Origin: a virus
Virus record (IMG/VR): IMGVR_UViG_3300030370_000147
Coordinates: 1 to 55,854 of that record
Reading direction: 5' to 3' (one strand)
Length of the DNA stretch: 55,854 nt
Under the pieces are notes generated by a model. That model was not told the origin of the DNA and searched no databases. It was given only the letters and a program-made list of their open reading frames with translations. Positions 11,534 to 50,827 of this stretch are shown here, one piece after another. Made by a program: the position numbers and the translations under genes. Numbering within the stretch: position 1 is the stretch's first letter; every line of letters begins with the position of its first letter.

Positions 11534-11600
11534 TGTCGCCATCCAGCACACCCCTTGCCTGATCGGGGTGCGGATTATGGAGATCAGGTGATGTTAGTGG

Positions 11601-11635
11601 GAGGGAGCAGGCAGGGTCAAAGCCGCTCCCTCTTT
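11601..11635 (+). terminator. Intrinsic terminator of the early operon
   Basis: An 8-bp perfect stem GAGGGAGC (11601-11608) pairs with GCTCCCTC (11625-11632), followed by TTT. It lies 68 bases after the last early gene. A smaller 6-bp hairpin, CACCCC with GGGGTG (11549-11570), precedes it. The short T run makes it a moderate terminator. Confidence 0.6.
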
Positions 11636-11711
11636 ACACATTATACAAAAGTTGATGCGTACATTGCTCCTCATGCGAGACAAGCGCATAGATTTGGTTG
11701 ACATTGCGAAG

Positions 11712-11737
11712 AAGAGGGGGGCAACGGCCTCCCTTTT
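11712..11737 (+). terminator. Second hairpin terminator in the convergent gap
   Basis: AAGAGGGGGGC (11712-11722), a 4-base AACG loop and GCCTCCCTTTT (11727-11737) form an 11-bp stem with two G-U pairs when read on +, and end in T4. Read on -, two pairs become mismatches. It touches the stop codon of the last late gene, so it may stop read-through from both sides. The 203-base gap 11534-11736 holds no convincing gene. Confidence 0.55.
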
Positions 11738-12045
11738 CAATTGCAGTCCTTTTGCCTGAGCTCGTCCACGAGAATCTCTAGGTGTGCAATGCGCTTCTCA
11801 GCATGCGTCAGCCTTAAGTTCTGCTCCGCATCATCAGGTAGGCTGCCCATCTCTCCTCGTGGCCACTTCACCCTGAAGTCAGAGTTCAGTTCTATCTCCT
11901 GGTTGTGTCGCAACGTTTCAAGCTCCAGGTTATTCAGCGAAGACATGATGGTAAAGTATAAGGTGACTGCAGCACCTACGCCCAAGACAATTTGAATCAA
12001 CCACTTGATGTTGATCCCCATGCTGGTGTTGTCGTCGAGATTCAT
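11737..12045 (-). CDS. Membrane-anchored coiled-coil protein, possible spanin-like
   Basis: A 102-residue protein with one membrane span at about residues 13-34 (IKWLIQIVLGVGAAVTLYF) and a helical C-terminus (LRLTHAEKRIAHLEILVDEL). It is the last gene of the late operon, right after the 3TM holin. A membrane anchor plus coiled coil next to a holin fits a lysis accessory or spanin-like role, but this is inference; no lipobox or paired outer-membrane spanin is visible. Confidence 0.6.
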   Translation of the reverse strand: MNLDDNTSMGINIKWLIQIVLGVGAAVTLYFTIMSSLNNLELETLRHNQEIELNSDFRVKWPRGEMGSLPDDAEQNLRLTHAEKRIAHLEILVDELRQKDCN

Positions 12046-12131: not shown

Positions 12132-12549
12132 CTTTTTCTACTGTTCGCCCCGCGAAGTATGCTCCGAATACCGTGAGCATGAGAATCTCTAACAGGTTGA
12201 TGTAGTTTTCTGGCGGCATAAACGATGGATCAATGCCGTCCCATATAGTTAGAGTCATATAGAAAAGGGAAAGGGAAATAAGTGTAACGGGGCGGATCAG
12301 CTTCGCCAGCTTTACATCCGATTGCGCATCTGCCTTCCATCGCTCGGTGACATTCTCTTGAGCCTCTACCTCTGCGTCCATGACTGCCTGGAAGCTCTCG
12401 CTGTCCAGGGTAGGATCCTTGTCCACCAGATTCTTCACCACCCCCAGCACGCCTCGGTCGGGCAGTACATCGCCCACCACATCGAGGACAGAGGGGGCCT
12501 TTTCGCGTAGCCACTGACCAACCTTTGTTTCCTTTATTTTTTGTGGCAT
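12121..12549 (-). CDS. Holin, 3TM (GTA-holin-like) family
   Basis: A 142-residue protein matching the 3TM phage holin family. It has an N-terminal amphipathic region and the block VTERWKADAQSDVKLAKLIRP near residue 68. Hydrophobic segments follow (VTLISLSLFYMTLTIW and LLEILMLTVFGAYFAGR), with a basic EKVKR end. Such proteins form membrane lesions that release the endolysin or collapse the membrane potential. It starts at the stop of the giant internal virion gene, at the end of the late operon. Confidence 0.75.
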   Translation of the reverse strand: MPQKIKETKVGQWLREKAPSVLDVVGDVLPDRGVLGVVKNLVDKDPTLDSESFQAVMDAEVEAQENVTERWKADAQSDVKLAKLIRPVTLISLSLFYMTLTIWDGIDPSFMPPENYINLLEILMLTVFGAYFAGRTVEKVKR

Positions 12550-21223: not shown

Positions 21224-22159
21224 TTATTGTCTACGACGCCTTTGGTTCCTTGACCGCTGTGGCCTTGCAGCCGTTTCGCGATGGTCATAGTCTGTTGCTT
21301 CATACTCTAGGTTTAAAGCATATAACTCATAGTCAGCTGCACCCAACGTAAGAACTGCATTAACAGTATGTCCGCGTGCCTGCTCCCCATTGATATTGCC
21401 TGGAGTCACGGAGTACAGGTAAGTATTACCCACTCCAGGTAGTGTGATCTCGCCGCCAGATAGGTATATAACATTTGTACCTATACTTTCCTGATCAGCT
21501 AAAGGAGTCAAAGCCAAGCCTGTAGGGATTCCAGCGTAAGTCTGGATGGCAATGGGACTGGCGACATTAAACTGAAAGTATGTCGTCGCGGTCGAGCCAT
21601 CAGGGTTGTCCTGAATATTGGCCAAGAAATACTTTGTGTCCCCATCCTGATCGAAGTTGTATGCCAGGCCGCCATCAATGAACTGAATAGAAACTGTGTT
21701 TACACCAACGCTAAACTGATTGTCCTGCACCACACCCATCAGCTTGACATTTGCTCCTGTCAAACGAGTGTCGAATCCAACGCTGCCATAGAGTATGCCG
21801 CCCCGTTCCGTAAGTATAGAAGCAGATGGGTTGACCGCCTGGTCAGCAACAGTGCTATCGTTTACAGTTAAGACTGACAAGCCTTGTACATTATTGGTTG
21901 ACTCTAATGAAAAAGATTTATAGATCTTGTTTCTACTAGGCTTGTCATTGAATGACACTGCAATAGAACTGCCGCCAACCACCCCATAAAAGCTCGTTCG
22001 TGCAGCGCCCTCTACGTTGTGCTCCCAGATCGGCTGCCGTTCAAAAACTTGGTTGAAGCTAAAAAACAGGCGATCAATGAAAGCATAACAGTAGCTGTAA
22101 AAGCTATACCGTGTCTTCCAGAATCCCCCCTTATGGCTAAATGCTATTGTCCTAGGCAT
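21224..22159 (-). CDS. Tail hub-associated protein, 311 aa
   Basis: A 311-residue beta-rich protein. The N-terminal segment (FSHKGGFWKTRYSFYSYCYAFIDRLF, here split by an aromatic cluster) leads to PIWEHNVEGAARTSFYG and NDKPSRNKIYKSFSLES. I recall this signature from the C-terminal end of long tail-hub proteins of Bacteroidetes phages, so here it may be a separately encoded piece of the upstream 2290-residue protein, with which it shares a TAATG junction. The C-terminus is Arg-rich (RPQRSRNQRRRRQ). Confidence 0.55.
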   Translation of the reverse strand: MPRTIAFSHKGGFWKTRYSFYSYCYAFIDRLFFSFNQVFERQPIWEHNVEGAARTSFYGVVGGSSIAVSFNDKPSRNKIYKSFSLESTNNVQGLSVLTVNDSTVADQAVNPSASILTERGGILYGSVGFDTRLTGANVKLMGVVQDNQFSVGVNTVSIQFIDGGLAYNFDQDGDTKYFLANIQDNPDGSTATTYFQFNVASPIAIQTYAGIPTGLALTPLADQESIGTNVIYLSGGEITLPGVGNTYLYSVTPGNINGEQARGHTVNAVLTLGAADYELYALNLEYEATDYDHRETAARPQRSRNQRRRRQ

Positions 22160-25100
22160 TATAATGGATTATTGTTAATAACGCTTTGCACGACGGATAA
22201 GAGTTCTTCTGTAGACAGCGGACGAGTAAGCTGGGCTCCAAAGTTCTGGAATAGCGGGATTGCAAACTGACTTATATATCCACCATCAAGTTTAGTTGAC
22301 TTTGCAATCCAATCACCATAAGGCCCAGAAAGATCTAGTGGGCCCTTTTTTACCAGAGGCAAGACCTGGCCGTTGCCGAAGACCATCTCCCAAAAGCTGA
22401 GACCAGTTTCTTCATCCACCGCGCTAAATTGTTCATAAATAGCGAAGATGTCGCCTGGATTATACTGAGTAGGCGGAGGAAAATCAAGGTGCGTAACCCC
22501 TAGATCAGAGTAATTTTCTGCAGTTGCAGCAGTATTATTGCCGTTTGGCCCATTCTGAAACCACAGGACACCAAGCATTATAGTTTGGGTAATCGATGGG
22601 CCTGAAGCAAACGGCTCTGGGTTGAGAACCGCAACCCCAGCCCTTCCAGCGAAGTAATCATCACGATACGTCTGGTAAGGGTCTGAAGAGGTAAGCATAT
22701 TGTAAGTATTCACAACCGCAGACCGTCCACCCGAATCAGAAGCTGTTCCGCCATAAAATTCTCCTGGTGTCTCATAGACGCTTAAGATGTCAAGGACATC
22801 GGTTACTCCAAAAACCCCATCAGGCGAGTTTAGAGCGCCAAGGTCAAGCGGGTTAAACAAATTTCCTAACCCTCTCACTAACTCCGAGTTTCCCCTAGTG
22901 GGAATATTCTGATTTCCTCGAATGCTGAATACATCATCCGTAGCTCCCGATTGAACAGCAACTTCTTTTACAACATCAGCTACAACCTTGATGATATAGT
23001 CTTCCGTGATCTCAGCATCGTTGCCACCACCAAGACCTAGGTTTTCCACGATAAACTGAATAGTCTCAAGACTAAAGGAACGCTGTACATCGTCAAAACC
23101 TAAGACGCCATCACCAGCAATGGTAGATACAGTTGTAGACTCAAGCTGACCAGATGTGACATCAGGTATAAACGTTGCTGCACCTGGAGCAAAGCTACTA
23201 GGAGCGTCACTTAAAGCCTGGACTTGATCAGCCAGTACATCCACCTGCCCCCGTAGCGTTGCTGCTGTGTCAACCAACTTTGCAACAGCGGAACTAATGT
23301 CGATAGAGTTTAAGTTGAGCAGTGGCGTTATGCTATCGCCGACATTACCGACTAGAGTCTTAAGCTGCGTTAGACTGTTAATCTCTGGACCACCCAAGGG
23401 GTAATCGGTTTCCTGAAAGCTGGTCAGTCCTGAAACAGCTACATCCGTTTTCAACTTAGAGACGAAGTTGATTTGAATAGGCGCCCCCGCCATCATCACC
23501 GTACTCATATAATCCTGCAGCGCTTCGTTTGCTACAACTGTAGCGTTCAACAGGACAGCAAGATTCGGCTCGGTGGCTAGTCCAGCGGCAGCCAACTGAT
23601 CTGACACATCAGCTACTGTACCGTCTATACCTGCAACGAGCTGTACAATCTGATCCTCTGCGCCTGTTTTTAGGCCTACAATTATCTCCTTTACTGTGTC
23701 TCTTAAAGCCAGGGATCGCACCTCATAGGCAATCTTTAAAGGAACGCCAGGTATATTAACATTCGGATTTACAATTAGGTTGTTGTCTAGGTAAGCTTCG
23801 TAATCATTCTGCTCAGGGATACCTGGACCGTTGTACGTAAGACCTGAAACAAAATCAATAGCTTCATTGACACTATTGATGAGACCAGCATTGGCTTTAA
23901 AATTACCGAGGTAAGCGCCCTCCCCGTTGGTCACGGTGAAGTCCCCTAAGGTTCCTGCAACTCCATCAGTAAGGACCCCCTTTGTACTTACGCTTACCCC
24001 CGTGGAGGTCGATGATGTAGCGCCTTCCCAAGATGTAAGCTCATACGGAGGGTCAAACCCATTAGGGCTGTTGCCATTAAAGTAATCTATAATACGGTCT
24101 TTATTGAAGTCTGCAACGCTGACTGTTCCAGGAGGATTCGTCGGCGGGAAAGGGTCGGCATCCGTTGGGGCCACGCCGTCTGGTGCGGTGCCACCTGTGT
24201 CAACCACCTCCTCCACCAAGTCTTCCATGGGACCACCGTAAGAATCATCCCATTCAGTAATCCCATCGCCTTCCTCATTAGGAGTAAATCCGCCATCTGG
24301 AAAGTCGCTGAGTAATTCTATGTTTGGCTGTGTATATGGTGCATAAGCGCTCTGGTTGATCACATTGGTGGTCATTACCGTTATGATGTACTCATCATTG
24401 AGGGGGTCGTAACCACTAACAACACGCACTAAATCGCCATAACCGTACTCCTCAAAAGTATCGACGAAGTATGCGTTCATACCTGCATCAGAGATGACTT
24501 CGACACCCTTTTTAGGATTGTACCGATAGACCTGCTTCTTTGTCTTGTGGGCAAAGTATACACTGTCGTCAACCTTAATGACACTCTCTCTATTGTTGTC
24601 CGCCCCTGCGCTGCTAGGCATCATCTGTTGATTGCCAACAACTTTACTGGTAGCAATTAGGCTTTCTGCTCCAAGGACATCACTAATAATCTGCCTGTTT
24701 ACAGGGAGCATGCTCACCTTGTCCTCTTGTACCACAAACAAAGAGTCGTTGTAGTTTAAGAGCGCATTGATGTTTCCAAACTCGTTGGGCAGATCTTTAA
24801 ATGGTGCTAGATAAGGATTGAATACGGTGAACCTCAAGCGACGAACACTGTAGTTGTTCTCGTCACTGAATGTGACACTTGAAAATCGGCGGACTTGGGC
24901 AGCGTCAGGCTTGTACCTTTTTACTTTACCTAATCCATTGACGTCACAGCCTGGAAAGGTGTCGTTGAAAGTGTCGGTCTCAAGATAGACACTGCGAAAC
25001 CGTGGCTGCGTGGGAAACGTATTGGCCTCTCCGAAAGCATCTACATCAGGTTGAATGATGTTTATGAAATTACCGTCTTGGTAGTCATTGATGTTAACGG

Positions 25101-28100
25101 GAACAGCCCTCCACCACACATCACCATTGGCAAACTGTATCGTTGGGGTCTGGTAGTATACACCATTAGGCCTCCGACCTATATTGTATACCTGTGAGGT
25201 CTCCTGATACACTATTTCCTCCCCTTCAGCCAAACGATTAGGGGTCACAATCTCTACTATGCACCGCCCCCGCCAAAAGTTATTTCCTTGAGGATTGTTG
25301 TTGTCGAGAATGACCGAGTCAAAGCTGAATCCACCTGCCTGTTGATTGTTCTTCAGTATTAAAAACTGACCTGTCAAGTGAACCGCATCTGAGTCGTCAG
25401 TCTCCATCAAAGGATTGGTGTCTGAATCCGACGTTAAGGTTACTTGACCCGCAATCTCAAAAATAAGATTCGAAGGATAGATCTGAGTAGTGTCGTCGGT
25501 AAAGTAGCTTATGACTCTTAGGTAATCACCTGGAGAATATGCGTAAAGATCGCTTGTGCCATCAGGATGCACCGCACCAAAGGCCTCAGAGTACGAGACA
25601 GAAGGATTGAACTGCAGGTAGTTTAAAGAGACGTAGATGTTGTTCAATGCCTCCTGCTCAGAGTCAATAGCATGATACCCACCACCAACGCTGTACTGAA
25701 TGAAATCTTGAACTGTACTGCTGCCCGCATAAACTAGCTGAACATAATGAGCCCAATCTGGAGGATCACTAAGCAATGCTATGTCCATACTAACACGCCC
25801 CTGACGACCAGTACCACCTCTCTCTGCTGGAGAATAGCCTGGTACAAAAACAGGGGGGAGTGGACGAACGTTTCCTGGTCGGCCCCTTTGATCGTAATGG
25901 ATGATACCTAAGGCGTGAGTAGCATTGGTCTTAAATGTGCGGTATGTGCCACTAACATCAGTCTCGCCTAAGAATATATCAGTTGCAATCTCTGCCCTAG
26001 GTCCTGCAGTAGAAGATTCAAAGCTGAAATTGTAAAATTCTGTTGGGTCACTTGGATCCTCATCAACCGCCCCAGCACCGCCACTATTAATGAGTTGACC
26101 ACCAATCCTTTCAAGCGTACTATTGAAACTAAATCCTTCAGGGAACAGGTCACCAATATCCTCACCTTCAATGTTTTGAGAAAACCCTGTTGCCCAGGCA
26201 GCAACGCCCCAACAGATTGCCATAGATCCATAAGGCCCTATCTCAGGGTCACTAGACATGTGAACGTGATCGGTGCCTGAAGCTCCTAATGGTGTGGCAT
26301 AATCACGGTATTCTCCTCGGTAGATAGCGGCATGGATCTCTCCGTCACACAACGAAGCACCTGCTTCAAACGGTATATTACTGTTTAGGACTGCAATATC
26401 AGTTGGGTCCAGACCCTGCTCAGTCAGATAATCTATCCTCCGTGTCGTATTGTTGACAAAGAGATCGTCACCAGGAACTGGACCCGTTAATGTACCCTCT
26501 GTACTATACAGCCAACCTAGAAGTCGTGACCGTTTAGTCAGTGGCAGCATATCATTATTATTCCCGCCTGCCATCGTCCCTAAGAAAGCAGTCTGATCCC
26601 GTGGGTCAGCATCGGAAAAACCGAACAAATTGTTTTGGGATAGGTAGGTCGGGGAGAACACACGCCACCCTTCAAACCTTAATCGCTGATCGATAGGTCC
26701 TGCACCAGCTACAGTACCAGCAGAATTAAGTACAGGCAAGCACGTACGCACATCGCAATCACTTAAACCATCAATCTCTAAGTGCATTACAAGCGCACCG
26801 TTTGGGTCGGCAGTTATTGGAGTATTCCTAAGTCTGAAACTAATACTAGCAGAGTTTACAATACAGTAGCCTATTGGAGCATTTGAAGCCCATATGGATG
26901 CATTGTTACCATACGTATTGTTTGCATTAGTACTGATAACTGGAAAGATGAGCTTGGATACTTCTAGGTGACTGCTGTTTTTAGTAGGAAGGATAGCAAA
27001 CGCTGGAGTGTCTGTATTAATGACGGCATATGTTGCGGCATAATTGTCGTAAGTTGCCTCAGGGGTTGAGCCCAATGACAATCCACCAACACCTTCGATG
27101 CCTGGAATCGCAGTTCCAGGGTCATTCAGATAATCTAGGTAGGCGTCGCTGTCAGTCGGGTCCAAAAGTCCTAAGTCAAAAGCATAGGATGGATTGACCT
27201 GTGAGTTTACCACATCCCATCCAGCGGGAGCCAGCTCTTCAGGCTGGCCACTCAAGCCATACGCTAAGATAGCACCGATTTGGGCCTCAGGGTTAGTAAT
27301 TGCCCCCTGAGACACAGCAGTAAAAGAAAAATTCAGTTGCTCTGCAGAGCCTTGCGGCCCACGAAAACGAAGGGGAGACAAACCATGATAGCCACACCTC
27401 GCCTGAGAGATGCTAGGGTTATTAAATATGCTTTGGCCTTCTGCTGTAGACCTCCACCGTAAATTACCTGTTCCAATACCAGTACCAATACCACCTACAG
27501 GTAGTGAGCCACGAGATGCATTGCTACTAGCATAGGTCTCACCAGGTAGTTGACCGTTCTGAAACGCATCATTATTAGCAAAGTCTAGGGTTTGAGCATT
27601 CGTAGCGAGTGAGTCTACACCTATAGTTTGACTAGCGTGGTAATTATTTTCTGCTTGATACGCCTCAATAGCTCCTCCAAAAGCCACACGAATTTGAGCG
27701 GTTATGTTCGTCCCTGCAGGCAGGGAATCAGGCAGTTGGGAGAGATCCATCACAAATCCCGTCGATCTGTTTGAGAAGTTAGTCCCTACACCCTCTAATG
27801 TGGTAGCTTGATTATCTAGGGGAACGACTGCTGCCCGTACAGGGATGTTGACGTTGATGAACTCGTTAGGTCGATCTTCATATACCAGCGTGATATTACC
27901 CTCTATAGGTTCCTCATCAAAACCCTCAACATAATTACCATAGAACAACCTGTTCTCAACTACTGAGACAGCCTCAGCAACTTGAGGGTGGGCATCAAAA
28001 TCCCTGTTCTGTTCTTCGTTGGTCAGTCCTGTAAGAACCTCATCGTTATAGAAGTCGTATACAATAGGGTTACCTCCAACACCAGGCCATTCTACTTCGT

Positions 28101-29031
28101 CTATTTCATACCACGCTCCAATGTTACCCTGCCTCACCAAGAGACGCACACGCTCTACCTCTTCGGAAAAGTTAGGCACCAAGTCAACAGCAGACGGAAC
28201 AACAAGTCGAATAAACATCGGGAGCTCTAGCTGCGTAGCGGTAAAGCCTTGCCGCAGATACTCCTCTGGGACAGCGATGTCAGAATAAGTTGATATAGCC
28301 GACTCTTCCCCAGTAAAATAGATGCACTGAAAAGCAAACTGTAATCCAGGAATCCGACGGAAGTTGCTTTGAGCCCGCGTGGGATCAGGTTGGAAAGTAA
28401 ACTGGATAGGGTGGATAGGGGCCTTAGTACAAGCCGTTATTAGATCCACGTCATCTACACTGTTTTCTGTATAGTTAAAACCAGTAGGGCCATAACCATT
28501 TTCTACACAGCGCAGAACGTCAAGTCTCCGAGGCTCATTCTCATTGTCCGTAAAGTATAGGATGGGACGGTAAGTATCGTTAGGGCCTGTGATATGGACT
28601 ACATCACCGACAACTCTGGCGGTAGAGCTGAATTGAAACTCACTCGTTCTATATATCGGTCTCCATGCTTGATCACCCCCAGCAAAAAATCCATAAGCAT
28701 CGTAAGCATACACCCCCATTTCACTAGGGTCCTGGGAATAGATGAACATGTAGATCACTCCTGACCTAGGATCACTAATCTTACCCAGTACCCGTCTTTC
28801 ATAGACTGGCTCAGGGGGGAATACGTCATCTAACTCAAACGTCTTAATGGCTCTTAGCTGATTACCTTTCTGAGGTTTTACTACACCTGAATCACCGCCA
28901 TCGTTTGCGCCCACCAAATTATCGAAGTCCTCTGTGACTACGACGTTTAGGGCGTCGTTCATCTCAGTTTTCTTTCGGATCCGATTGTCCTTTCCTGAAT
29001 TAAGAAGTCTGGGAAATAACTTATCGATCAT
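22159..29031 (-). CDS. Tail hub/stabilization protein, 2290 aa, with dockerin-like repeats
   Basis: The largest protein of the window. The first about 1550 residues are beta-rich, with DPRSGVIYMFIYSQDP and FGNINALLNYNDSLFVVQEDKV, a pattern I associate with the tail stabilization proteins of crAss-like podoviruses, which plug and extend the tail tube. The C-terminal third differs: it holds three Asp-rich segments resembling dockerin/EF-hand loops, VADFNKDRIIDYFNG (about 1637), AGDGVLGFDDVQ (about 1970) and DGVFGVTDVLDILSVYE (about 2070), which could bind calcium. It follows the two tail adaptor-like genes, as expected. Confidence 0.65.
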   Translation of the reverse strand: MIDKLFPRLLNSGKDNRIRKKTEMNDALNVVVTEDFDNLVGANDGGDSGVVKPQKGNQLRAIKTFELDDVFPPEPVYERRVLGKISDPRSGVIYMFIYSQDPSEMGVYAYDAYGFFAGGDQAWRPIYRTSEFQFSSTARVVGDVVHITGPNDTYRPILYFTDNENEPRRLDVLRCVENGYGPTGFNYTENSVDDVDLITACTKAPIHPIQFTFQPDPTRAQSNFRRIPGLQFAFQCIYFTGEESAISTYSDIAVPEEYLRQGFTATQLELPMFIRLVVPSAVDLVPNFSEEVERVRLLVRQGNIGAWYEIDEVEWPGVGGNPIVYDFYNDEVLTGLTNEEQNRDFDAHPQVAEAVSVVENRLFYGNYVEGFDEEPIEGNITLVYEDRPNEFINVNIPVRAAVVPLDNQATTLEGVGTNFSNRSTGFVMDLSQLPDSLPAGTNITAQIRVAFGGAIEAYQAENNYHASQTIGVDSLATNAQTLDFANNDAFQNGQLPGETYASSNASRGSLPVGGIGTGIGTGNLRWRSTAEGQSIFNNPSISQARCGYHGLSPLRFRGPQGSAEQLNFSFTAVSQGAITNPEAQIGAILAYGLSGQPEELAPAGWDVVNSQVNPSYAFDLGLLDPTDSDAYLDYLNDPGTAIPGIEGVGGLSLGSTPEATYDNYAATYAVINTDTPAFAILPTKNSSHLEVSKLIFPVISTNANNTYGNNASIWASNAPIGYCIVNSASISFRLRNTPITADPNGALVMHLEIDGLSDCDVRTCLPVLNSAGTVAGAGPIDQRLRFEGWRVFSPTYLSQNNLFGFSDADPRDQTAFLGTMAGGNNNDMLPLTKRSRLLGWLYSTEGTLTGPVPGDDLFVNNTTRRIDYLTEQGLDPTDIAVLNSNIPFEAGASLCDGEIHAAIYRGEYRDYATPLGASGTDHVHMSSDPEIGPYGSMAICWGVAAWATGFSQNIEGEDIGDLFPEGFSFNSTLERIGGQLINSGGAGAVDEDPSDPTEFYNFSFESSTAGPRAEIATDIFLGETDVSGTYRTFKTNATHALGIIHYDQRGRPGNVRPLPPVFVPGYSPAERGGTGRQGRVSMDIALLSDPPDWAHYVQLVYAGSSTVQDFIQYSVGGGYHAIDSEQEALNNIYVSLNYLQFNPSVSYSEAFGAVHPDGTSDLYAYSPGDYLRVISYFTDDTTQIYPSNLIFEIAGQVTLTSDSDTNPLMETDDSDAVHLTGQFLILKNNQQAGGFSFDSVILDNNNPQGNNFWRGRCIVEIVTPNRLAEGEEIVYQETSQVYNIGRRPNGVYYQTPTIQFANGDVWWRAVPVNINDYQDGNFINIIQPDVDAFGEANTFPTQPRFRSVYLETDTFNDTFPGCDVNGLGKVKRYKPDAAQVRRFSSVTFSDENNYSVRRLRFTVFNPYLAPFKDLPNEFGNINALLNYNDSLFVVQEDKVSMLPVNRQIISDVLGAESLIATSKVVGNQQMMPSSAGADNNRESVIKVDDSVYFAHKTKKQVYRYNPKKGVEVISDAGMNAYFVDTFEEYGYGDLVRVVSGYDPLNDEYIITVMTTNVINQSAYAPYTQPNIELLSDFPDGGFTPNEEGDGITEWDDSYGGPMEDLVEEVVDTGGTAPDGVAPTDADPFPPTNPPGTVSVADFNKDRIIDYFNGNSPNGFDPPYELTSWEGATSSTSTGVSVSTKGVLTDGVAGTLGDFTVTNGEGAYLGNFKANAGLINSVNEAIDFVSGLTYNGPGIPEQNDYEAYLDNNLIVNPNVNIPGVPLKIAYEVRSLALRDTVKEIIVGLKTGAEDQIVQLVAGIDGTVADVSDQLAAAGLATEPNLAVLLNATVVANEALQDYMSTVMMAGAPIQINFVSKLKTDVAVSGLTSFQETDYPLGGPEINSLTQLKTLVGNVGDSITPLLNLNSIDISSAVAKLVDTAATLRGQVDVLADQVQALSDAPSSFAPGAATFIPDVTSGQLESTTVSTIAGDGVLGFDDVQRSFSLETIQFIVENLGLGGGNDAEITEDYIIKVVADVVKEVAVQSGATDDVFSIRGNQNIPTRGNSELVRGLGNLFNPLDLGALNSPDGVFGVTDVLDILSVYETPGEFYGGTASDSGGRSAVVNTYNMLTSSDPYQTYRDDYFAGRAGVAVLNPEPFASGPSITQTIMLGVLWFQNGPNGNNTAATAENYSDLGVTHLDFPPPTQYNPGDIFAIYEQFSAVDEETGLSFWEMVFGNGQVLPLVKKGPLDLSGPYGDWIAKSTKLDGGYISQFAIPLFQNFGAQLTRPLSTEELLSVVQSVINNNPL

Positions 29032-42294: not shown

Positions 42295-42761
42295 TAGATA
42301 CTCTTTGAGACGTCTGAGTTGACTCTAAAACTGCCCTCTAGAATTGTCTTCTGTGTAGTTCCTACATTGTACTGCAGGTCATATTTATATCTCCCTGGTG
42401 CTACCTTCCGCATATCCTCAGCGGAAAGAAAGACAGTCACATTCCCACTATCATCTTTGTTGAGGAAGCTGAAATTGACTAGGCCTTTAACGCCAGATTC
42501 TGAACTACCAACGACAATGCCGTCACTGATTATAGCATCGTCAGAATCCGCCTCACCACCGCCTCCTGAAGGAACCCTGAGTACGGAAGGGCCCACAGCT
42601 TTAATGTTCTTCTTTACCTGCATCAAGAAAGTGTAATCATCAGTGACTAATGGCAAGGCGTCACCAGCAGAATCCTTAAGGGTGAGGGTGAGCTCAAAGG
42701 TATCGCCACCTCTGCAAGTAATGTCTAGCCTCTCGGCTATGTCAAGATTTACTTTAGACAT
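42294..42761 (-). CDS. Baseplate/fibre anchor candidate, BppU-like N-terminal domain
   Basis: A 155-residue protein beginning [20 protein letters not shown]. The strand order with [15 protein letters not shown] and [11 protein letters not shown] resembles the N-terminal beta domain of upper-baseplate (BppU-like) proteins that attach fibres. It sits directly upstream of the collagen-like fibre. ATG at 42761 overlaps the portal stop by 8 bases; the frame is open to 42791. Confidence 0.55.
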
Positions 42762-45207
42762 CTTTCTGTGTAAGTATTGTATCGAGATCAAGAGACATCA
42801 TTCCAGCCGAAGGATCTCCCTGCAACTCTTCCCTAGATCCCTGGCGCTGACTAATAAGTTTGCTTTGCTCTACCGCTTGCTTTTTTACCCGTTGATCCTT
42901 ACGATCATCTTTCTGCGTTTCAATATCCTTCCTATTGGCCACCTCACCCTGCTGGGTAGCAGACTGAATCTGCATCTTCATCTGCATAATCTCTTTCTCA
43001 AACTGATGCTTGATCTTAACGAGCTCAGCATCAGCCATGGCCTTAGCCTGAATAACCTGGACGTCAGCCTGAGTCTGAGTAGCAATCTCTTGTTGACGCC
43101 CCTGCATTTTGACGGCCTCTGTTTGCTGAGCTTGCTGAGCCTGAGCCTGCTGCATCTGCATCTGCTGATCCTGCATCTTCTTCATGCGCTTTTGACGGCG
43201 CAGAATCAAAAGGCGTTCTGCTTGATTGATGTCCTTTAGACCACGGATTGCCATGACATCCTCCAGGTCTATCTCTTTCTGATTTAAAGACATCTGGATG
43301 TTCTGTTCTAAGTAAGCCTTGTCTTTATCCTCCATGTCCTTCATGACCTTCACCCCAAAGTTGTACATCGGGAGATCAGAAAAGCTACCTAGAACCCGCA
43401 TATTCGAATCACCAATAGCATCTCGATAACTCTTGTGGATGATTGTTTCCTCAGGTAAAACCTGTAGACACTTCACTACGTCCTCGCAAACCTTACGGTA
43501 CAAAACCATAGCCGCGTTCGTAATATCATAAGTCGCATTATTACTCGCCGCAATAGCCTGCTGCTGCACACCCACCAACGTATCACCCTTAGGTGTTGAA
43601 GCGTCAGCCATCTCATTAATTCCAGTAGTGTCCCGAATCATTCTGAGGTAATGATTGTACAAGGCAATCAACTCATTAATGTTCCGAATACTATTGCCGA
43701 TCTCTCGAACAGGAGGATTTTGGAAACCGCCTTCTGGATTCTTACTCCTGTAATAGAAGACACCAGTTTGCTCATAGATGTCGTGGAGATCCAGCGGCTG
43801 AAGTTCACCACTCTTACCTAACTGAACGTTCTCTAACCCCTCAATGTCAATGATCAAACCATCAGGCTTAGCTTTAGCGATAGCCTGCTGCAGCTTCAAG
43901 TGAGTTAGCTGAAGCATATCAGAGAATCCAACACAGCTGTCCACCATGGACTTTGGCATATTGGCCACCATGTTCGTTGATACCACAGAGTAAGACATTG
44001 CAGCCCTGGTGATATCGTGCATGTTCTTAGGCGTGTTGTACTGCTTGCCATAGTTGATTAGGTGCTCAGTACCCAGGACATACATTCCTTTGTAGATACA
44101 CTCAATCTCCATGCTATGGGCAGTGCGGTCGTAGACACTCCCCTTCTTCTCTTTGTATGAGAAGCCCTCATAAAAGAAGTTGGTATTACCATACTGGTTC
44201 TCCTTCTCCTCGAAGTACATGCAGTCCACGGTCTTGAACTCAAACTCCAAAACCTCGACGACATGCCCGCTAAAATTCTCGCGCTGAACACCTCCACTTG
44301 AATAGGGATGATCTGGATATTTACTGGAGCTAGAACGACGGGACTTCTTCAGCAATTCCTTGAGGTCTTTTTCAGAAATCTGATCCCCTGCAAGACGCTT
44401 CAGTTCTGACACAGTGATCTCGCGGACGTGCCCCATATACCCAACGTCCTCAAAGTTTGGGTCCTGTGTATACCCATGGACAAAGTGAACAGGGTCTACG
44501 TAGTCCAGCTTAATACCGTAGTTAGGGTCATTGCTTCTCTTCACAACCGCCATTCCACAGGAGGTCAAGTCATTCACGCACCTGCGATAAGACCCATCAG
44601 TAAAGCCATTCCACTGCAGAGTTAGTTCAGTGGCTACCTGGGCTGCAATCTCAGCGTCCGTTTTGATGTTGGATTCTAAGAAAATCTCAGCCTCCTCTTG
44701 TGTTTCGGGGATCTGTTCGCTAGGCTCATCCAACACTGGGCTGCCCATCCTCTTCTCCAAATCCATGAACATAGGTCGCATAGCAACCTTGTTCTTCATT
44801 ATGTTCTTTTGCTCATTCTTCTCACTCGATGAGAGTGGATCGACAGCCTCCAGGTTCGGATACATATTCCGACCTAAGATTTTATTGACTACGATACGGA
44901 CGAACTTGGGTAGGATAGGAACAGGAGTGTAGTCCAGGTTCATCAAAGAACCCTCTCCGTTGTTCGGATCAGATGTATTCAGCAGCTGCTTATAAATAGC
45001 TGTGTCCTGTGTGCCGTTAGCGTAATCTCTGTTACGAGCAAAGATTGACTTACGACCTCCAAAGGTAGAACTGCTATCTTGCGTATTGCCCCATTGAGAC
45101 TCAATCGCCTTAGCATATTGCAACCCATACTTTTTCGTAAGCTTCTCCTCTTGCGATGCCAGTGGATCTGGAAAACCCCCTGGATCACTTGGCTTTTTAT
45201 TGTACAT
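42754..45207 (-). CDS. Portal protein
   Basis: An 817-residue protein, the dodecameric channel for DNA entry and exit. It shows LTKKYGLQYAKAIESQWG, RNRDYANGTQD, NLDYTPVPILPKFVRIVVNK and, later, DTTGINEMADASTPKGDTLV, the order seen in crAss-like phage portals. The C-terminal about 170 residues are a Gln/Lys-rich coiled coil (QDQQMQMQQAQAQQAQ), suggesting an internal barrel. It follows the terminase gene, the standard order. Confidence 0.82.
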   Translation of the reverse strand: MYNKKPSDPGGFPDPLASQEEKLTKKYGLQYAKAIESQWGNTQDSSSTFGGRKSIFARNRDYANGTQDTAIYKQLLNTSDPNNGEGSLMNLDYTPVPILPKFVRIVVNKILGRNMYPNLEAVDPLSSSEKNEQKNIMKNKVAMRPMFMDLEKRMGSPVLDEPSEQIPETQEEAEIFLESNIKTDAEIAAQVATELTLQWNGFTDGSYRRCVNDLTSCGMAVVKRSNDPNYGIKLDYVDPVHFVHGYTQDPNFEDVGYMGHVREITVSELKRLAGDQISEKDLKELLKKSRRSSSSKYPDHPYSSGGVQRENFSGHVVEVLEFEFKTVDCMYFEEKENQYGNTNFFYEGFSYKEKKGSVYDRTAHSMEIECIYKGMYVLGTEHLINYGKQYNTPKNMHDITRAAMSYSVVSTNMVANMPKSMVDSCVGFSDMLQLTHLKLQQAIAKAKPDGLIIDIEGLENVQLGKSGELQPLDLHDIYEQTGVFYYRSKNPEGGFQNPPVREIGNSIRNINELIALYNHYLRMIRDTTGINEMADASTPKGDTLVGVQQQAIAASNNATYDITNAAMVLYRKVCEDVVKCLQVLPEETIIHKSYRDAIGDSNMRVLGSFSDLPMYNFGVKVMKDMEDKDKAYLEQNIQMSLNQKEIDLEDVMAIRGLKDINQAERLLILRRQKRMKKMQDQQMQMQQAQAQQAQQTEAVKMQGRQQEIATQTQADVQVIQAKAMADAELVKIKHQFEKEIMQMKMQIQSATQQGEVANRKDIETQKDDRKDQRVKKQAVEQSKLISQRQGSREELQGDPSAGMMSLDLDTILTQKDV

Positions 45208-45230
45208 GTGGGTTATCCGTTATCACCCAC
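45208..45230 (-). promoter_or_regulatory. Inverted repeat in the portal leader
   Basis: Between the TATATTTG site and the portal ATG lies a 6-bp inverted repeat, GTGGGT (45208-45213) and ACCCAC (45225-45230), separated by 11 bases. It could be an operator or a leader hairpin that affects portal translation. Nothing in the window identifies its binding partner. Confidence 0.35.
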
Positions 45231-45237
45231 AAATATA
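45230..45237 (-). promoter_or_regulatory. Late promoter -7 element TATATTTG before portal
   Basis: TATATTTG on the - strand, 22 bases before the portal ATG, within the 36-base gap between terminase and portal. The leader contains an inverted repeat, which sets this site apart from the near-leaderless ones. Confidence 0.6.
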
Positions 45238-45243
45238 ACTAAT

Positions 45244-47367
45244 TCAACCGCGCACGTCATAGCGCCTGAAAAAGCGCTTCTCGTCAAAGTTATCTTTCTT
45301 TTTTTTCTGCTTGACTTTCTGTGCTGCTAACAGCGCAAGACCCGAACTAATAGTTAAGTCAAACTTGGTCCTGTTGTGGATGTCATAGCCAATCCAATCC
45401 TCTAAGGTTTTGTTGAAGTACATACTCCCCATCTCACCACTCTCCCTATTGACCCCTACATATCCGTGGATATACGCTTCGATAGCCTGGGCGTGAGACT
45501 GTATTACATCCGCTGAGTTTGACGGGATGCCCTTGGTCTTCACCTTTATATTGGTATTGGGTGCGATCAAATGCTTAGGCCTGTCCATCAAGTAACCATC
45601 GTACCCACGCTGCTCAAAGTACCTGGCTATACCGTACTTGTTATTCTCGATTAAGATTGGATACCCATAAAACACTGCCGCCATTAATACGTCCTCATAA
45701 AATATTGCAGCCAGTGGCGGACGGGAAGCGTACTCAAGAACAAACATATTAGCAGGTACTTCCATATTGAACTTGTTGTACAAATGCAACGCACCCTTGG
45801 ATCCTCTGCCATCCACAGTAGCATCGAGATCGTAGCTATCCACCCCCCCACAACCAAGGTGAGCGTTAGGTGCGATTCTCTTATTTTTTTCATACACCTT
45901 TAAGTTCCTTAACTCCTTCGGAGGGAGCCATGCAATATTGAATCGACCATTGACATCGGGGGTAAAGACCACCTCACTATCCTTCTTGCCCCCCGTCCAG
46001 CTCAGGCTTCCAGTGATAACGGGATTCGGATATAGGTCGTCATTGTGTTCTATCTGCTCATAGATCTGACCGATATTAAAGAGACTCGACTCTATGCTGT
46101 CACGAAATGCCTCATCCGTGGTGAAGGGGAACTGTCTTATGACTTCGTTCAACTCACTGGGGTCATCACGCATACTATCCCTCTCATTCTTAAGGAAGGT
46201 CTTAGCGCCCATATGCACCCACTCCCCATCGATACCCTGAACATTTTCTTTAGGATCCTCTACAACAGGCCTACCATAAATATCGAAGAACCCCTCTAGT
46301 GACTCATAGGCAGGAATGAATAGCCGATACAGCCCCGACCTAGTCCTCCCATTCTTGTTCCTCTCCTGAGGCGCCGAATCGTCCCATAAATCTTTGTACT
46401 CCCTTCCTCCCTTTCCCATAGGATTTACCGTGCTTCCGACCATCGCCTTGCCGACGACCTTGCGACCGACGATTAAACAAGTCCTCTGAATCCTCCAGGC
46501 TTCTCTTATGTCTGTGGGTTTTTCCCATTTCCCCGCTTCGTCTAAGTACAGCAAGTGAACTTTCTCACCGTCATAAGCATTGTTAGTTGTGTTCTTCCAG
46601 TTGATCACCGTGTTCAAGGCGTCTCCAACCAAAGCAGTTTTGTTTTTCTTGGTGATCTTTTTTGAGGGCTCACGGAAAGCCAACTCCATACGAGGGTTGG
46701 TAGTGCCATCTTGAATCGGCTTGAAGAAGAATGGATACTTACGGAACATGTTGACCACCTTCTTCATGAAGATGTTCTCTTGAGCGTCCTTACCAGTCTT
46801 GCTCTGTATGCCTATGAGCTTATCCTTAACCTGGGTTGATTCATCAACTATGACAGAAGAACAAATGTTAGTGTATCCAGATCGGCGACATTTAGTATAT
46901 AGCTGACCAATACATCTTGGGTCCGCCTCACACGCTGCCAAATGTAAGAAAATATCTCTCTGGAAATCAAGATAGTAAGGGGAGCCAACGTCCAGCTGCC
47001 CCCACTGCAACATCATGTAGTGTCTACCCGTGATGTATGTAGCATCACCTCGGTTGTAAAACCAAACACCTTCACGCCTCCGCCGAAACTCCTCTTCGAT
47101 ATATGGACGAAACTTCTCCCTGAATTCCCTCGGCATCTCCGCCCACTCATCCATAGAACGTATACGCGATAGCTCTTCGGGTATATCAGATCTCCGCCAG
47201 AACTGATCAAGCACGGGAAGATTATGGAAGAGGATGCTCCTGATCTTAGGGGTCTTGGGAAGGACAATGACAAGCCCACCGACTTCGACGTGGTCCCCCA
47301 TCGTACCGTTGGGACAAATCGAGATAGCTGGATCCTCATGGTCCTTTAATTCAATTAATGTATCCAT
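45244..47367 (-). CDS. terL: Terminase large subunit
   Basis: A 707-residue packaging motor. The ATPase half shows YTKCRRSGYTNICSS at the place of Walker A (without a canonical GKT/S) and a clear Walker B KVHLLYLDEAGKWEK, followed by the coupling segment AMVGSTVNPMGKGG. The nuclease half has GGVDSYDLDATVDG, with acidic residues suited to metal binding. The variant P-loop (C-R-R-S-G-Y-T) resembles crAss-like terminases as I recall. The C-terminus is Lys-rich (KQKKKKDNFDEK). Confidence 0.85.
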   Translation of the reverse strand: MDTLIELKDHEDPAISICPNGTMGDHVEVGGLVIVLPKTPKIRSILFHNLPVLDQFWRRSDIPEELSRIRSMDEWAEMPREFREKFRPYIEEEFRRRREGVWFYNRGDATYITGRHYMMLQWGQLDVGSPYYLDFQRDIFLHLAACEADPRCIGQLYTKCRRSGYTNICSSVIVDESTQVKDKLIGIQSKTGKDAQENIFMKKVVNMFRKYPFFFKPIQDGTTNPRMELAFREPSKKITKKNKTALVGDALNTVINWKNTTNNAYDGEKVHLLYLDEAGKWEKPTDIREAWRIQRTCLIVGRKVVGKAMVGSTVNPMGKGGREYKDLWDDSAPQERNKNGRTRSGLYRLFIPAYESLEGFFDIYGRPVVEDPKENVQGIDGEWVHMGAKTFLKNERDSMRDDPSELNEVIRQFPFTTDEAFRDSIESSLFNIGQIYEQIEHNDDLYPNPVITGSLSWTGGKKDSEVVFTPDVNGRFNIAWLPPKELRNLKVYEKNKRIAPNAHLGCGGVDSYDLDATVDGRGSKGALHLYNKFNMEVPANMFVLEYASRPPLAAIFYEDVLMAAVFYGYPILIENNKYGIARYFEQRGYDGYLMDRPKHLIAPNTNIKVKTKGIPSNSADVIQSHAQAIEAYIHGYVGVNRESGEMGSMYFNKTLEDWIGYDIHNRTKFDLTISSGLALLAAQKVKQKKKKDNFDEKRFFRRYDVRG

Positions 47368-47386: not shown

Positions 47387-48121
47387 TTAATCGTAGAAGC
47401 CTTGAATCAGCATCTGTAGTCTTGGGAAACGCGGTATGATTTGATTGGACGGAAGGTACTCTGGGTAGATCCTACGATAGGACTCGTAGTTGTGCATGTC
47501 CAAGGTGCTCTTGACATCGATGCAATCTTCTTCATCAAACTCCACATACTCAATAATATCCTTGCCCCACTTGTCTGTCATCTTGTCCAGAACCTTGCCG
47601 TCAAAGTTAAACTGCTGATCTAAATCGTAGACAGTCAGTATGTTGACAGCGTTAGTGAAACTGTATGTCAAGAAGAACTGACCTGAACTTATTAGGTAGT
47701 GACTGTGAGGCCTGAAGTGACAAGTCTTAGGGGTATCCTTATCTCTATGTAAGATGATGCAATTGCGACTTCCAAAGGTTGCGACCTTATTCTCACTGAG
47801 TTTGTTCAGCGCCTTCTCCCAGTAGCCATCACTGTGAATGTTATTGCTACCCATCCAACAGATGTAGTCTTTGTTCTCTTGTGCCGCTAACATCCAAGCA
47901 TAAGTGAACTTTCCTGAGAGAGGATCGTTAGGATGCCTTTCATGCTTCAACCCCCTGTTTTTTGCAAACCTTTCAATAACAGAAGAGGAGCCTATAGTAA
48001 TCCCCACAGCGTCAATGCCGCGCTCTTTAAACATATCAATAACGTCAGCCATATGATCTATGGCCATTCGAGTTACAGCTGGTCTACGGTGGTACACCAT
48101 AAAGAAGCAAACGCTCCTCAT
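47387..48121 (-). CDS. Glycosyltransferase-like (GT-A) protein, 244 aa
   Basis: A 244-residue protein beginning MRSVCFFMVYHRRPAVTRMA. The N-terminal alternating strands and helices, then YICWMGSNNIHSDGYWEKAL and VATFGSRNCIILHRD, fit a GT-A glycosyltransferase fold; the canonical DxD is not obvious, MGSN being at that place. It lies immediately before the terminase gene in the transcription direction. It might glycosylate virion proteins or modified DNA. No acceptor can be named. Confidence 0.55.
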   Translation of the reverse strand: MRSVCFFMVYHRRPAVTRMAIDHMADVIDMFKERGIDAVGITIGSSSVIERFAKNRGLKHERHPNDPLSGKFTYAWMLAAQENKDYICWMGSNNIHSDGYWEKALNKLSENKVATFGSRNCIILHRDKDTPKTCHFRPHSHYLISSGQFFLTYSFTNAVNILTVYDLDQQFNFDGKVLDKMTDKWGKDIIEYVEFDEEDCIDVKSTLDMHNYESYRRIYPEYLPSNQIIPRFPRLQMLIQGFYD

Positions 48122-48405
48122 GACTTACTCTGTGGACGGGTCAGATCTAAATCAACTACAATCGGCGTCTTGGGTCCTAAGTACCCTCCCAATGTATTGA
48201 ACTGTAAGTGCTCGACCGCAGTCTCATAGGTCATGGCGTCTCGATTCATGCACACGTCAACCATACTCTTCCAGTCGTAAACCGCCACTGGCTCTATGCC
48301 AACCGAGATCCCCACCAGGGCATCATCAAGTCCATCCCATGTAATGCACTCCTCCTCTTCCAAAGCGTCCATGAGTCTATCCCAGTTCTTTGCTTGCCAA
48401 GTCAT
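48118..48405 (-). CDS. Hypothetical protein, 95 aa
   Basis: A 95-residue acidic protein beginning MTWQAKNWDRLMDAL. The end reads TPIVVDLDLTRPQSK. It overlaps both neighbours by 4 bases, so it is coupled to the glycosyltransferase-like gene. Not recognised. Confidence 0.5.
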   Translation of the reverse strand: MTWQAKNWDRLMDALEEEECITWDGLDDALVGISVGIEPVAVYDWKSMVDVCMNRDAMTYETAVEHLQFNTLGGYLGPKTPIVVDLDLTRPQSKS

Positions 48406-48692
48406 TTTGAAAATCTTTCTGCGAAACCACCAGAGTAATCTTTACCCTCTTTCATTGTTCCACCCAATGTAAGATCTTTCATCATCTGCTCCAGCCTTTG
48501 TCTTTCAACAAGCAGCTCTTTGCAATCAATCGCCGTCTGCTTAATAGACTGAAGCTCAGCCTTTCTAGCACTGCCATTAATCTCTTTATCGACAGGCTTT
48601 TTGATCTCTTCGATCATATTGTTGATAGCTACCTCCATTGAGGCCATCAGGCGCTGGGCCGCATCAATCGCTGTGAATTTCTTTCTCGACAT
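48402..48692 (-). CDS. Helical protein upstream of terminase, small-terminase candidate
   Basis: A 96-residue, all-helical protein beginning MSRKKFTAIDAAQRLMASME, with a coiled-coil-like middle (KQTAIDCKELLVERQRLEQMM). Size, helicity and location in the same unit as the terminase make it the best small-terminase candidate in the window, although no DNA-binding motif is clear. ATG at 48692 gives a 29-base overlap with the GroES-like gene. Confidence 0.4.
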   Translation of the reverse strand: MSRKKFTAIDAAQRLMASMEVAINNMIEEIKKPVDKEINGSARKAELQSIKQTAIDCKELLVERQRLEQMMKDLTLGGTMKEGKDYSGGFAERFSK

Positions 48693-49263
48693 ACAATAAG
48701 TCAGATGTTCGTACACGGTACATAGTACCGCCTTCGAGGTTTTTAAAGTCGTATCGATACTTGCTAGGGAAGACAACCTTATCAAGCAGGTTTAGTCCCA
48801 TCTCCTCATGATCGCTAGTTACATATGTTAAGAGCCCCCTATCAGGATTCTCAGTCTCAAAGGACACAGACTCAATGACTGCAGATTCCTCCTGTATTTC
48901 TGCCGCACATGCAGATAGTACTGACCACATAGATAGCGGTATGATCTCATCAGAACCCTGAGGTGTGTAGGCAAACGCATGACAGTTGATCATCACATCT
49001 GGATCGTAAGAGACCAAGAACTCACCCTCTCGATCACCAAAGGGCATGCCTCCATCAACCACCACTAAGTGATGAAAAAAGAGCCTGTCCCCAACGTTTA
49101 CCGGAGTGTCATACTTCTCTGGCACAGAAATCACCTCACCATGGCAGACCCGATGATCGAACTCGTTGAACTTGGTGTCCACATATATCTCCTTGTCGCC
49201 AAGGGATACCGTGTCATGTAGCCGCTTCTCAAGCTTGACTACAAAATAGTGTAGCATTTTCAT
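48664..49263 (-). CDS. GroES-like co-chaperonin
   Basis: A 199-residue protein whose two ends together resemble a GroES fold. The N-terminal part has YFVVKLEKRLHDTV, GEVISVPEKYDTPVNVGDRLF; the C-terminal part has LLDKVVFPSKYRYDF and GGTMYRVRTSDLLYVE, like the final strands of GroES. The middle 80 residues would be an insertion in the mobile-loop/roof region. Phage co-chaperonins (T4 gp31, for example) replace host GroES so that the capsid protein fits the chaperonin cage. The assignment is by pattern only. Confidence 0.55.
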   Translation of the reverse strand: MKMLHYFVVKLEKRLHDTVSLGDKEIYVDTKFNEFDHRVCHGEVISVPEKYDTPVNVGDRLFFHHLVVVDGGMPFGDREGEFLVSYDPDVMINCHAFAYTPQGSDEIIPLSMWSVLSACAAEIQEESAVIESVSFETENPDRGLLTYVTSDHEEMGLNLLDKVVFPSKYRYDFKNLEGGTMYRVRTSDLLYVEKEIHSD

Positions 49264-49502
49264 CAGAAGTTCAAGTCAAATTCCACTAGGCATGGCAGAC
49301 CATCGACCGCCTTCCACAAGGACTGTGCGTCCCCCACAGTGATATAGATCATATACCTGCTGACACCGTAATGATGTAGGTGCGCTTCATCCAGGATAAT
49401 AGTGGAGACACTCCCGTCACCAACCCGCATGCCTACATAGTACGCCATCGCGTCCTTCGGGTTCGGACCGATTATGATTTTTCTAATTATTCCATTCATC
49501 AA
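49263..49502 (-). CDS. Conserved small phage protein, 79 aa
   Basis: A 79-residue protein beginning MMNGIIRKIIIGPNPKDAMAY, with YVGMRVGDGSVSTIILDE and an LVEFDLNF end. I recall near-identical small proteins in phages of marine Bacteroidetes, always unassigned. It overlaps or touches both neighbours, inside the terminase unit. Confidence 0.6.
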   Translation of the reverse strand: MMNGIIRKIIIGPNPKDAMAYYVGMRVGDGSVSTIILDEAHLHHYGVSRYMIYITVGDAQSLWKAVDGLPCLVEFDLNF

Positions 49503-49846
49503 TTACAAGATGGGTCAGGACCCCCTCTCGCATTCATCTCATCGATAATTTCTTTGTACCAGTTTTCACTAGCGAAATCAACATCCTCCTCTAGTGGGAA
49601 TAAGTCATCGAAGTAAGAGAACTTCAGGAAATCAAAAACCTCATCCATAAGATCCTCTGAATCAACGTCCATAGAGAATACCGCCTTGAGGATAGGCTCA
49701 TCAAACTCATCGCTTGACAAGAATCCCGTGAGCATAACATTAATGACCTCACCCTCTAAGCCATACTTCTTGACCAGCATGTCCACTATCTTGTGGACCT
49801 TCTGCATTTCGACAAGAAACATTTCCTTATTAGTTTGATCATCCAT
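49499..49846 (-). CDS. Acidic protein heading the terminase unit, 115 aa
   Basis: A 115-residue, strongly acidic protein beginning MDDQTNKEMFLVEMQK. Mostly helical, with DEPILKAVFSMDVDSEDLMDEV. The ATG uses a CATG (49844-49847) that also provides the ATG of the opposite-strand gene. The frame is open to 49909, but only through a TTG. Not recognised; a DNA-mimic or anti-host role would be speculation. Confidence 0.5.
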   Translation of the reverse strand: MDDQTNKEMFLVEMQKVHKIVDMLVKKYGLEGEVINVMLTGFLSSDEFDEPILKAVFSMDVDSEDLMDEVFDFLKFSYFDDLFPLEEDVDFASENWYKEIIDEMNARGGPDPSCN

Positions 49847-50252
49847 GTCAGTATCAAATAAAAAGATCTTTAGGGAACACTCCCGATTAAAACAAAGATA
49901 CGTAAACAAAAACGACCTTAAAGACTTGAGAGCCAGGCTACTATCTTTTGAACAGAAGTACGATCTCTATCAAAAAGAAATGTTTTTTATTCTATGGGCA
50001 TATGACCTGGAGTTCTGGACCCTTAGGTACGCAAGCCAAGAGTATGGGTACGACGAAAAAAAACTAGGAGATAGGATTGTATACCCCCTCCAAAAAGAAG
50101 GGTACATCCGAAAGCAGTTTGACAAGCTAACACCCTCACAGAAACGGGAAGACCACCTGTTTAGAGAAGAGACTAAGTACAACTACAGGGTCAGGTACGC
50201 CCTCACTCAGAAGGCTAGGCTAATGGTGCAGAGGTTCTACAACAGCCTTTAG
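49845..50252 (+). CDS. Winged-helix-like regulator candidate, 135 aa
   Basis: The only clear + strand gene in the late region. A 135-residue basic protein: FEQKYDLYQKEMFFILWAYD, LEFWTLRYASQEYG, then KKLGDRIVYPLQKEGYIRK and YRVRYALTQKARLMVQRFY. The order of helices plus the basic wing-like end fits a MarR-type winged helix. It is divergent from the terminase unit and convergent with the 192-residue gene (4-base overlap of stops), a setting typical of a regulator. The start at 49845 shares a CATG with the opposite gene; a later TTG start is possible. Confidence 0.65.
   Translation: MSVSNKKIFREHSRLKQRYVNKNDLKDLRARLLSFEQKYDLYQKEMFFILWAYDLEFWTLRYASQEYGYDEKKLGDRIVYPLQKEGYIRKQFDKLTPSQKREDHLFREETKYNYRVRYALTQKARLMVQRFYNSL
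49893..49900 (-). promoter_or_regulatory. Late promoter -7 element TATCTTTG before terminase unit
   Basis: TATCTTTG on the - strand, 46 bases before the ATG at 49846, inside the coding region of the opposite-strand winged-helix gene. Transcription of that gene would run through this promoter, so interference between the two is possible. Confidence 0.5.
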
Positions 50253-50827
50253 GCAGCGATGTACTCGAACTTAATCTTCTTGATGTACATGACGTCACCG
50301 CTTACAGGCTCGTTGGCAGTAGGATCTTCAAACTCGAACTTGATGTAGTCATCATCACCACTAGGGTCAGATGCTTCAGTCGCAAGAATTCGGTCATATA
50401 CCAGCGTTGCTATAGTGTTTTTCGCTGGCCCCGTAGTTGCCCTATTCTGTGCTCCAATCCAAATTCTAGCTCTGCTTACAGTCCCTGTATCAGTGTTGTC
50501 ACTGGGGAAACCGTATTCTAGGGTAAGCTGGAATGTACCACCTTCCGCTGCTACTGCATAGTAATCGTCCAAGTTGCCATCTAAAGCACCCTTGTCGAGA
50601 TGAAAAATTCCATCGGATCCTGTAGCAGTAGAGGTGACCTTGAGAAAATTACTAGAGCCAGCAAAGGTGTCAGTTGACAGCGCTATAGAGCAATTGCCAC
50701 CCGTCACAGAAAAATTAAAAGCGTCGAACAGGGTGAAATTCCCGTCCTTTTCATACAACACTTTAGACGGAAGGGGTTGCGACTTTATGTAGCCTCCCGT
50801 ACTTACACCAAGGCCGAGACCCAGCAT
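50249..50827 (-). CDS. Jelly-roll-like virion protein, 192 aa
   Basis: A 192-residue beta-rich protein. The N-terminus MLGLGLGVSTGGY is a signature I know from many virion proteins of Bacteroidetes phages. The rest (FNFSVTGGNCSIALS, FLKVTSTATGSDGIFHLDKG, FQLTLEYGFPSD, MYIKKIKFEY) has the strand order of carbohydrate-binding jelly rolls. Probably a fibre or head decoration. It starts at the stop of the 54-residue membrane protein (TAATG). Confidence 0.6.
   Translation of the reverse strand: MLGLGLGVSTGGYIKSQPLPSKVLYEKDGNFTLFDAFNFSVTGGNCSIALSTDTFAGSSNFLKVTSTATGSDGIFHLDKGALDGNLDDYYAVAAEGGTFQLTLEYGFPSDNTDTGTVSRARIWIGAQNRATTGPAKNTIATLVYDRILATEASDPSGDDDYIKFEFEDPTANEPVSGDVMYIKKIKFEYIAA

Follow-up and report, generated by a model that had tools for sequence, protein, structure and literature searches.

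A conserved host-type promoter box for the terminase unit lies within an opposing, predicted MarR-like winged-helix gene in probably crAss-related viruses

Background

What is the role of a gene that stands alone on its strand within a late region of ~44 kb, and whose start codon overlaps that of the gene heading the packaging unit? This question is raised by the window analyzed here, the whole 55,854-nt (55.9-kb) stretch of IMG/VR record IMGVR_UViG_3300030370_000147, which is a fragment of a tailed phage and kin of 60-kb podoviruses. Among named phages, its large terminase subunit (TerL) is nearest to those of MW202828 and Flavobacterium Elemovirus (41-48% identity). A crAss muzzle domain (PF25731, crAss_MUZ; 1e-12) was matched in the 2290-aa virion protein encoded at 22159-29031 (-), a sequence match that would link the virus group to the crAss phages. 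The group is a large and abundant set of aquatic, probably crAss-related Bacteroidota viruses. A Bacteroidota host is consistent with a fragment of a winged-helix (wHTH) gene homolog at a contig end of the Bacteroidetes MAG UBA10340 (L232:7-201), which is the only match to this gene family among genome contigs.

The window is divided into two blocks. Early-type genes (exonuclease, annealing protein, primase-helicase) occupy the + strand from 0 to 11.5 kb, and mainly structural and packaging (late) genes occupy the - strand from 11.7 to 55.8 kb; the two blocks converge at 11490-11740. Within the late block, a polyvalent protein of 1934 aa that carries an LPD38 domain is encoded at 12549-18353 (-). 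No lysogeny genes were recognized in the window. In Flavobacterium, the -7 promoter element is TAHHTTTG, transcription starts 4-5 nt downstream of it, and the -33 motif is weak (PMC6847099). Where promoters face one another, their overlap gives rise to transcriptional interference (PMC7498355, PMC3134472), and bistability has been modelled for the scbA-scbR pair (PMC3134472).

Results

Of the ORFs called from 11.7 to 55.8 kb, the wHTH gene is the only one on the + strand, in agreement with the first-pass annotation of this DNA, and both of the overlaps reported there were found (Table 1). At its 5′ end, the ATG at 49845-49847 (+) shares a single CATG with the opposite ATG (49846-49844) of the partner gene, which heads the terminase unit. 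At its 3′ end, the stop codon TAG (50250-50252) and the stop codon TAA of the converging gene (TTA on the + strand, 50249-50251) together form TTAG at 50249-50252. The converging gene is kept in only 2 of 63 relatives, so this second overlap reflects tight packing with a variable neighbor. Homologs of the wHTH gene were found at 434 loci encoding 177 distinct proteins, and most substitutions relative to other family members affect the third base of a codon (24/14/57 for positions 1/2/3 in comparison with relative L008); as judged from these two lines of sequence evidence, the ORF is a real gene. A weak terminator-like hairpin followed by a T run lies inside the gene on the late strand, at 50089-50066 (-). 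It is not clearly above shuffled sequences, and it could insulate the terminase unit.

Table 1 Features of the wHTH-terminase junction and the adjoining late genes
Feature	Position	Strand	Remarks
Portal protein gene (phrog_6547)	42754-45207	-	
Late promoter of portal gene, TATATTTG	45230-45237	-	Same box class as P(ter)
Large terminase subunit gene terL (phrog_6681)	45244-47367	-	
Gene for 96-aa protein	48402-48692	-	Lysine/glutamate-rich, probably helical; 79/79 relatives, 79% median identity
GroES-like gene (phrog_13932)	48664-49263	-	
Small conserved gene of terminase unit	49263-49499	-	79/79 relatives, 62% median identity
Partner gene, heads terminase unit	49499-49846	-	Acidic protein, 115 aa, pI 4.05
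CATG common to two opposite ATG starts	49844-49847		
wHTH gene	49845-50252	+	Predicted MarR-like winged helix, 135 aa, pI 9.7; from ORF, homologs and fold
P(ter), TATCTTTG	49893-49900	-	Host -7 box for terminase unit, inside wHTH coding region
wHTH codons 17-21	49893-49907		Top 5-codon synonymous constraint; family form CAA AGR TAC GTA AAA
Converging gene	50249-50827	-	Stop overlaps wHTH stop; not conserved

The 135-aa protein has no significant match to a curated family, whether Pfam or PDB sequence family, and no MarR family appears among the Pfam matches of 67 members. Structure prediction with AlphaFold2 from 67 relatives gave a confident winged-helix core (pLDDT >90 in the core) with a wing of low confidence. 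When the model was compared using Foldseek, MarR-type proteins accounted for all 50 of the 50 best PDB matches listed (probability 0.98-1.00); the matches are moderate, with a TM of about 0.5 and a best E value of 5e-3. The MarR core topology is present in the model, and the predicted fold is thus a MarR-like winged helix, which upholds the fold proposed by the first-pass annotation. The monomer model stops after a single C-terminal helix (122-134) and lacks the helix that forms the dimer interface at the MarR C-terminus. A viral model 91 residues long shares 78% identity with the wHTH protein.

The opposed arrangement is a constant feature of these viruses. No close relative whose flank reaches 2.75 kb or more lacks the wHTH gene, and in each of the 194 metagenomic loci holding both genes it is oriented opposite to terL, at a distance of 1.6-5.4 kb. 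The partner ATG lies between -30 and +2 nt in 171 of 175 unique loci. Its offset is +2, giving the exact CATG, in 26 of 129 loci, which belong to the window's clade and some others only. In strand relative to terL, in spacing of the partner ATG and in position of the promoter box described below, the layout exceeds chance. The conserved order is the wHTH gene, then, on the opposite strand, partner gene, small gene, GroES-like gene, gene for the 96-aa protein, a variable position, terL and portal. In the window, a gene with a weak glycosyltransferase-2 match (47387-48121, -) is inserted in the terminase unit, as in only 10 of 79 relatives.

The promoter of the terminase unit had been placed within the wHTH coding region, and this placement is supported by selection at the DNA level. 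The box TATCTTTG on the - strand is an exact fit to TAHHTTTG, and the spacing reported in PMC6847099 would put the P(ter) start site at ~49888-49889. Codons 17-21 of the wHTH gene cover this -7 box together with the AT-rich stretch before it. The corresponding position carries a box in 80 of 95 unique loci (background, 1.9%); overall, a P(ter) box is found in 153 of 175 unique loci and is embedded in 123 of those. Where the protein has Q-R-Y at this site, the codons are CAA AGR TAY in 37 of 37 representatives (<85% identical to each other), compared with 17 expected and a maximum of 27 in 5000 simulations; the simulations ignore phylogeny, and the exact excess is therefore not a probability. 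The same codons occur in 38 of 38 sequences added later. With these 38 included, all 114 unique QRY-coding genes read CAA-AGR-TAY, where codon usage predicts about half. Relatives encoding Q-K-Y or Q-S-Y instead still have a valid box. A deep clade has it shifted into the short gap between the start codons, and the deepest relatives are without an embedded box. These comparisons show that the P(ter) box is maintained by selection at both the DNA and the protein level, and they make it a clear case of a promoter preserved by synonymous selection within the coding sequence of an opposing regulator.

Two further candidates at this site were set aside. TACGTA was considered as an operator; it is enriched solely here, as part of the constrained element, and not at other late promoters. 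Alignment column 4, a box of serine codons (AGY), is the strongest single column, but serine codon islands persist without selection.

Of the 175 unique loci, 66 have a box on the + strand, 13-45 nt ahead of the wHTH ATG, where it overlies either the beginning of the partner gene or the short interval between the two starts. The top synonymous bias of the partner gene is in its first codons, where the + strand box falls. Both boxes are present in 63 of 175 unique loci, compared with 0.1% of control windows. Their left ends are 71-92 bp apart in the 29 loci of the first set that have both, and in the deep clade the two facing promoters overlap. If transcription starts at the published distance from each box, a typical pair would yield transcripts that overlap by about 70 nt. 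In the window and its nearest relatives, no + strand box is recognizable within 250 nt upstream, so only one promoter is shown for the window itself. No palindromic operator in the divergent region held up, and no binding site was identified from sequence. A dyad between the third positions of codons 10 and 13, considered as an operator or hairpin, came first among 3249 column pairs in the initial 47 representatives but failed in 36 new ones (z = -0.4).

The boxes of the late region are not confined to this junction. Six TATATTTG sites occur in the window, all on the late strand and close upstream of late genes, and eight late-strand sites of the form TAT(A/C)TTTG are located 5-47 nt ahead of late start codons. 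In relatives, TAT-N-TTTG occurs 399 times on the late strand and 118 times on the other (3.4x; shuffled expectation 107). It is conceivable, if unlikely in our estimation, that the wHTH protein is a phage-wide late activator or early-gene repressor that acts at many late promoters and not at the adjacent one only. The late-strand placement of all six TATATTTG sites would suit such a role, as would the single wHTH copy in the window's record and its retention in every close relative with enough flank; the RinA/Ltr proteins do govern a whole late block (PMC13123087). Furthermore, no RNA polymerase or sigma factor was recognized in the window, and timing therefore probably operates through the host polymerase. 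Against this, both TATATTTG and TATCTTTG fit the host -7 element (PMC6847099), which makes them ordinary host promoters whose boxes alone do not require a dedicated activator, and no shared operator or upstream motif beyond AT-richness was found at the late promoters. For these reasons the suggestion of the first-pass annotation that the protein could be the activator or repressor of the late promoters as a whole is not sustained. The missing -33 box was also rejected as proof of activator dependence, since the Flavobacterium host itself has only a weak -33 motif (PMC6847099).

The proximity of the gene to terL raises another possibility, namely that the wHTH protein functions as the small terminase subunit, delivering DNA to TerL, with the conserved DNA element in its own gene serving as the pac site to which it binds. 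In some phages, the pac site does lie inside the small-terminase gene. The DNA-binding fold of the wHTH protein, its constant presence and its distance of a few kilobases from terL agree with this idea, which we nevertheless regard as improbable. The gene is on the strand opposite terL in every locus, hence outside the terL transcription unit. That unit encodes the 96-aa protein, which is slightly more conserved (79%) than TerL itself (77%) and is a plausible and better small terminase candidate as far as sequence indicates; in crAss phages, gene 86, adjoining terL, has already been proposed as TerS (PMC7886860). In addition, the element is an exact host -7 box whose position in the deep clade follows that of the partner start codon, and the monomer model of the wHTH protein is without an extra (central) oligomerization domain.

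The partner protein has no PDB match to its fold. It is strongly acidic (pI 4.05; median of relatives 4.05) and is encoded beside the basic regulator (pI 9.7). From these sequence properties, it is conceivable that it acts as a DNA-mimic antagonist of the regulator.

Searches of named phages made directly with the window protein or the family consensus returned no relative; distant relatives were reached only by way of MW202828. Profile comparison related the wHTH protein to phrog_17028-type proteins of flavobacterial phages (probability 94%, E value 1e-7), a set comprising the MW202828 'repressor protein', elemo gp45, Panino CDS0105 and phi46:3 gp076. In MW202828 (L162:2950-3300), a late-strand TAnnTTTG box lies inside the gene of the distant relative and another lies just before the next late gene. 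These boxes suggest either an old origin or repeated origins of the embedded promoter.

That distant relatives sit elsewhere in other phages might indicate that the protein has an unrelated role, such as host takeover or nucleoid-like binding, and that only the promoter layout is adaptive. Interference requires no protein, and T7 Gp5.7 is reported to be a small, winged-helix-like phage protein that represses promoters used by the host polymerase (PMC5569994). We consider this explanation rather doubtful, given that the coupling between the wHTH gene and the head of the terminase unit persists in 175 unique loci, for which a functional link is the simplest explanation.

Discussion

It is hypothesized that the small, basic, MarR-like protein exerts local control at the packaging operon beside it, with mutual interference inherent in the layout, an interpretation to which we give somewhat better than even credence. 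The protein would regulate the adjoining packaging (terminase) operon and probably its own gene. As the first-pass annotation recognized, transcription of the gene must, by its geometry, oppose the packaging unit: P(ter) lies inside the regulator gene and points against it, so a full-length regulator transcript must cross P(ter). Transcription from P(ter) in turn crosses the start region of the regulator, which makes the 5′ ends of the two transcripts complementary wherever both boxes are known. The two units would then interfere through occlusion or collision of RNA polymerase and through antisense pairing, while the protein, binding in the junction region, would tip the balance. We infer that the regulator would be made before packaging starts and be shut off once P(ter) fires, such that regulator expression and the start of packaging probably exclude each other. 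We slightly prefer an adjacent late activator of the RinA/Ltr kind to a repressor.

A more elaborate version, which we offer as a tentative possibility well short of even likelihood, is that a strictly lytic lineage uses an overlapping facing-promoter toggle, with a MarR-like protein and both promoters in coding sequence, that delays packaging until replication is done. Regulator transcription would occlude the terminase promoter, and packaging transcription would then silence the regulator. The switch to packaging may be set by one small protein together with two ordinary host promoters. The junction of ~400 bp is compact, testable and conserved in hundreds of viral contigs, and it is offered as a candidate for the control of late-transcription timing in these probable crAss relatives.

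The locus resembles several known systems in part. As with the MarR regulators AbfR, YusO and SarZ, the wHTH gene combines the (predicted) fold with an orientation divergent from its putative target; in contrast to that family, its protein matches no MarR sequence model and its model is missing the last dimerization helix. The phrog_17028 proteins have a winged-helix domain homologous to that of the window protein and a longer C-terminus. In MW202828 and phi46:3, the relative is also alone on the opposite strand in the late block, as in the window; in Panino it is in a short + strand cassette, and in Elemovirus and phi40:1 the distant relative is, unlike the window gene, codirectional with the late genes. 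The phrog_17028 genes are located near groES/groEL or tail genes, whereas the window gene is directly at the terminase unit.

The RinA/Ltr proteins of Gram-positive siphophages (phi13 Ltr; PMC13123087) are likewise small (~130 aa), basic and encoded beside the packaging promoter. They differ in being encoded on the same strand, directly upstream of the promoter, whereas the gene described here runs against terL throughout the 194 loci with both, has a MarR-like predicted fold, contains the promoter within its coding region and belongs to phages of Bacteroidota. Finally, pR-pL of the P2-like phage 186 (PMC7498355) and scbA-scbR of Streptomyces (PMC3134472) share with the relatives described here a divergent regulator and target and, as predicted for those relatives that have both boxes, facing promoters and complementary 5′ transcripts. 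Unlike in those two systems, the target here is DNA packaging and the promoters lie within coding sequence; the window has neither recognized lysogeny genes nor a recognized second promoter, the box for the latter being present in about a third of its unique relatives.
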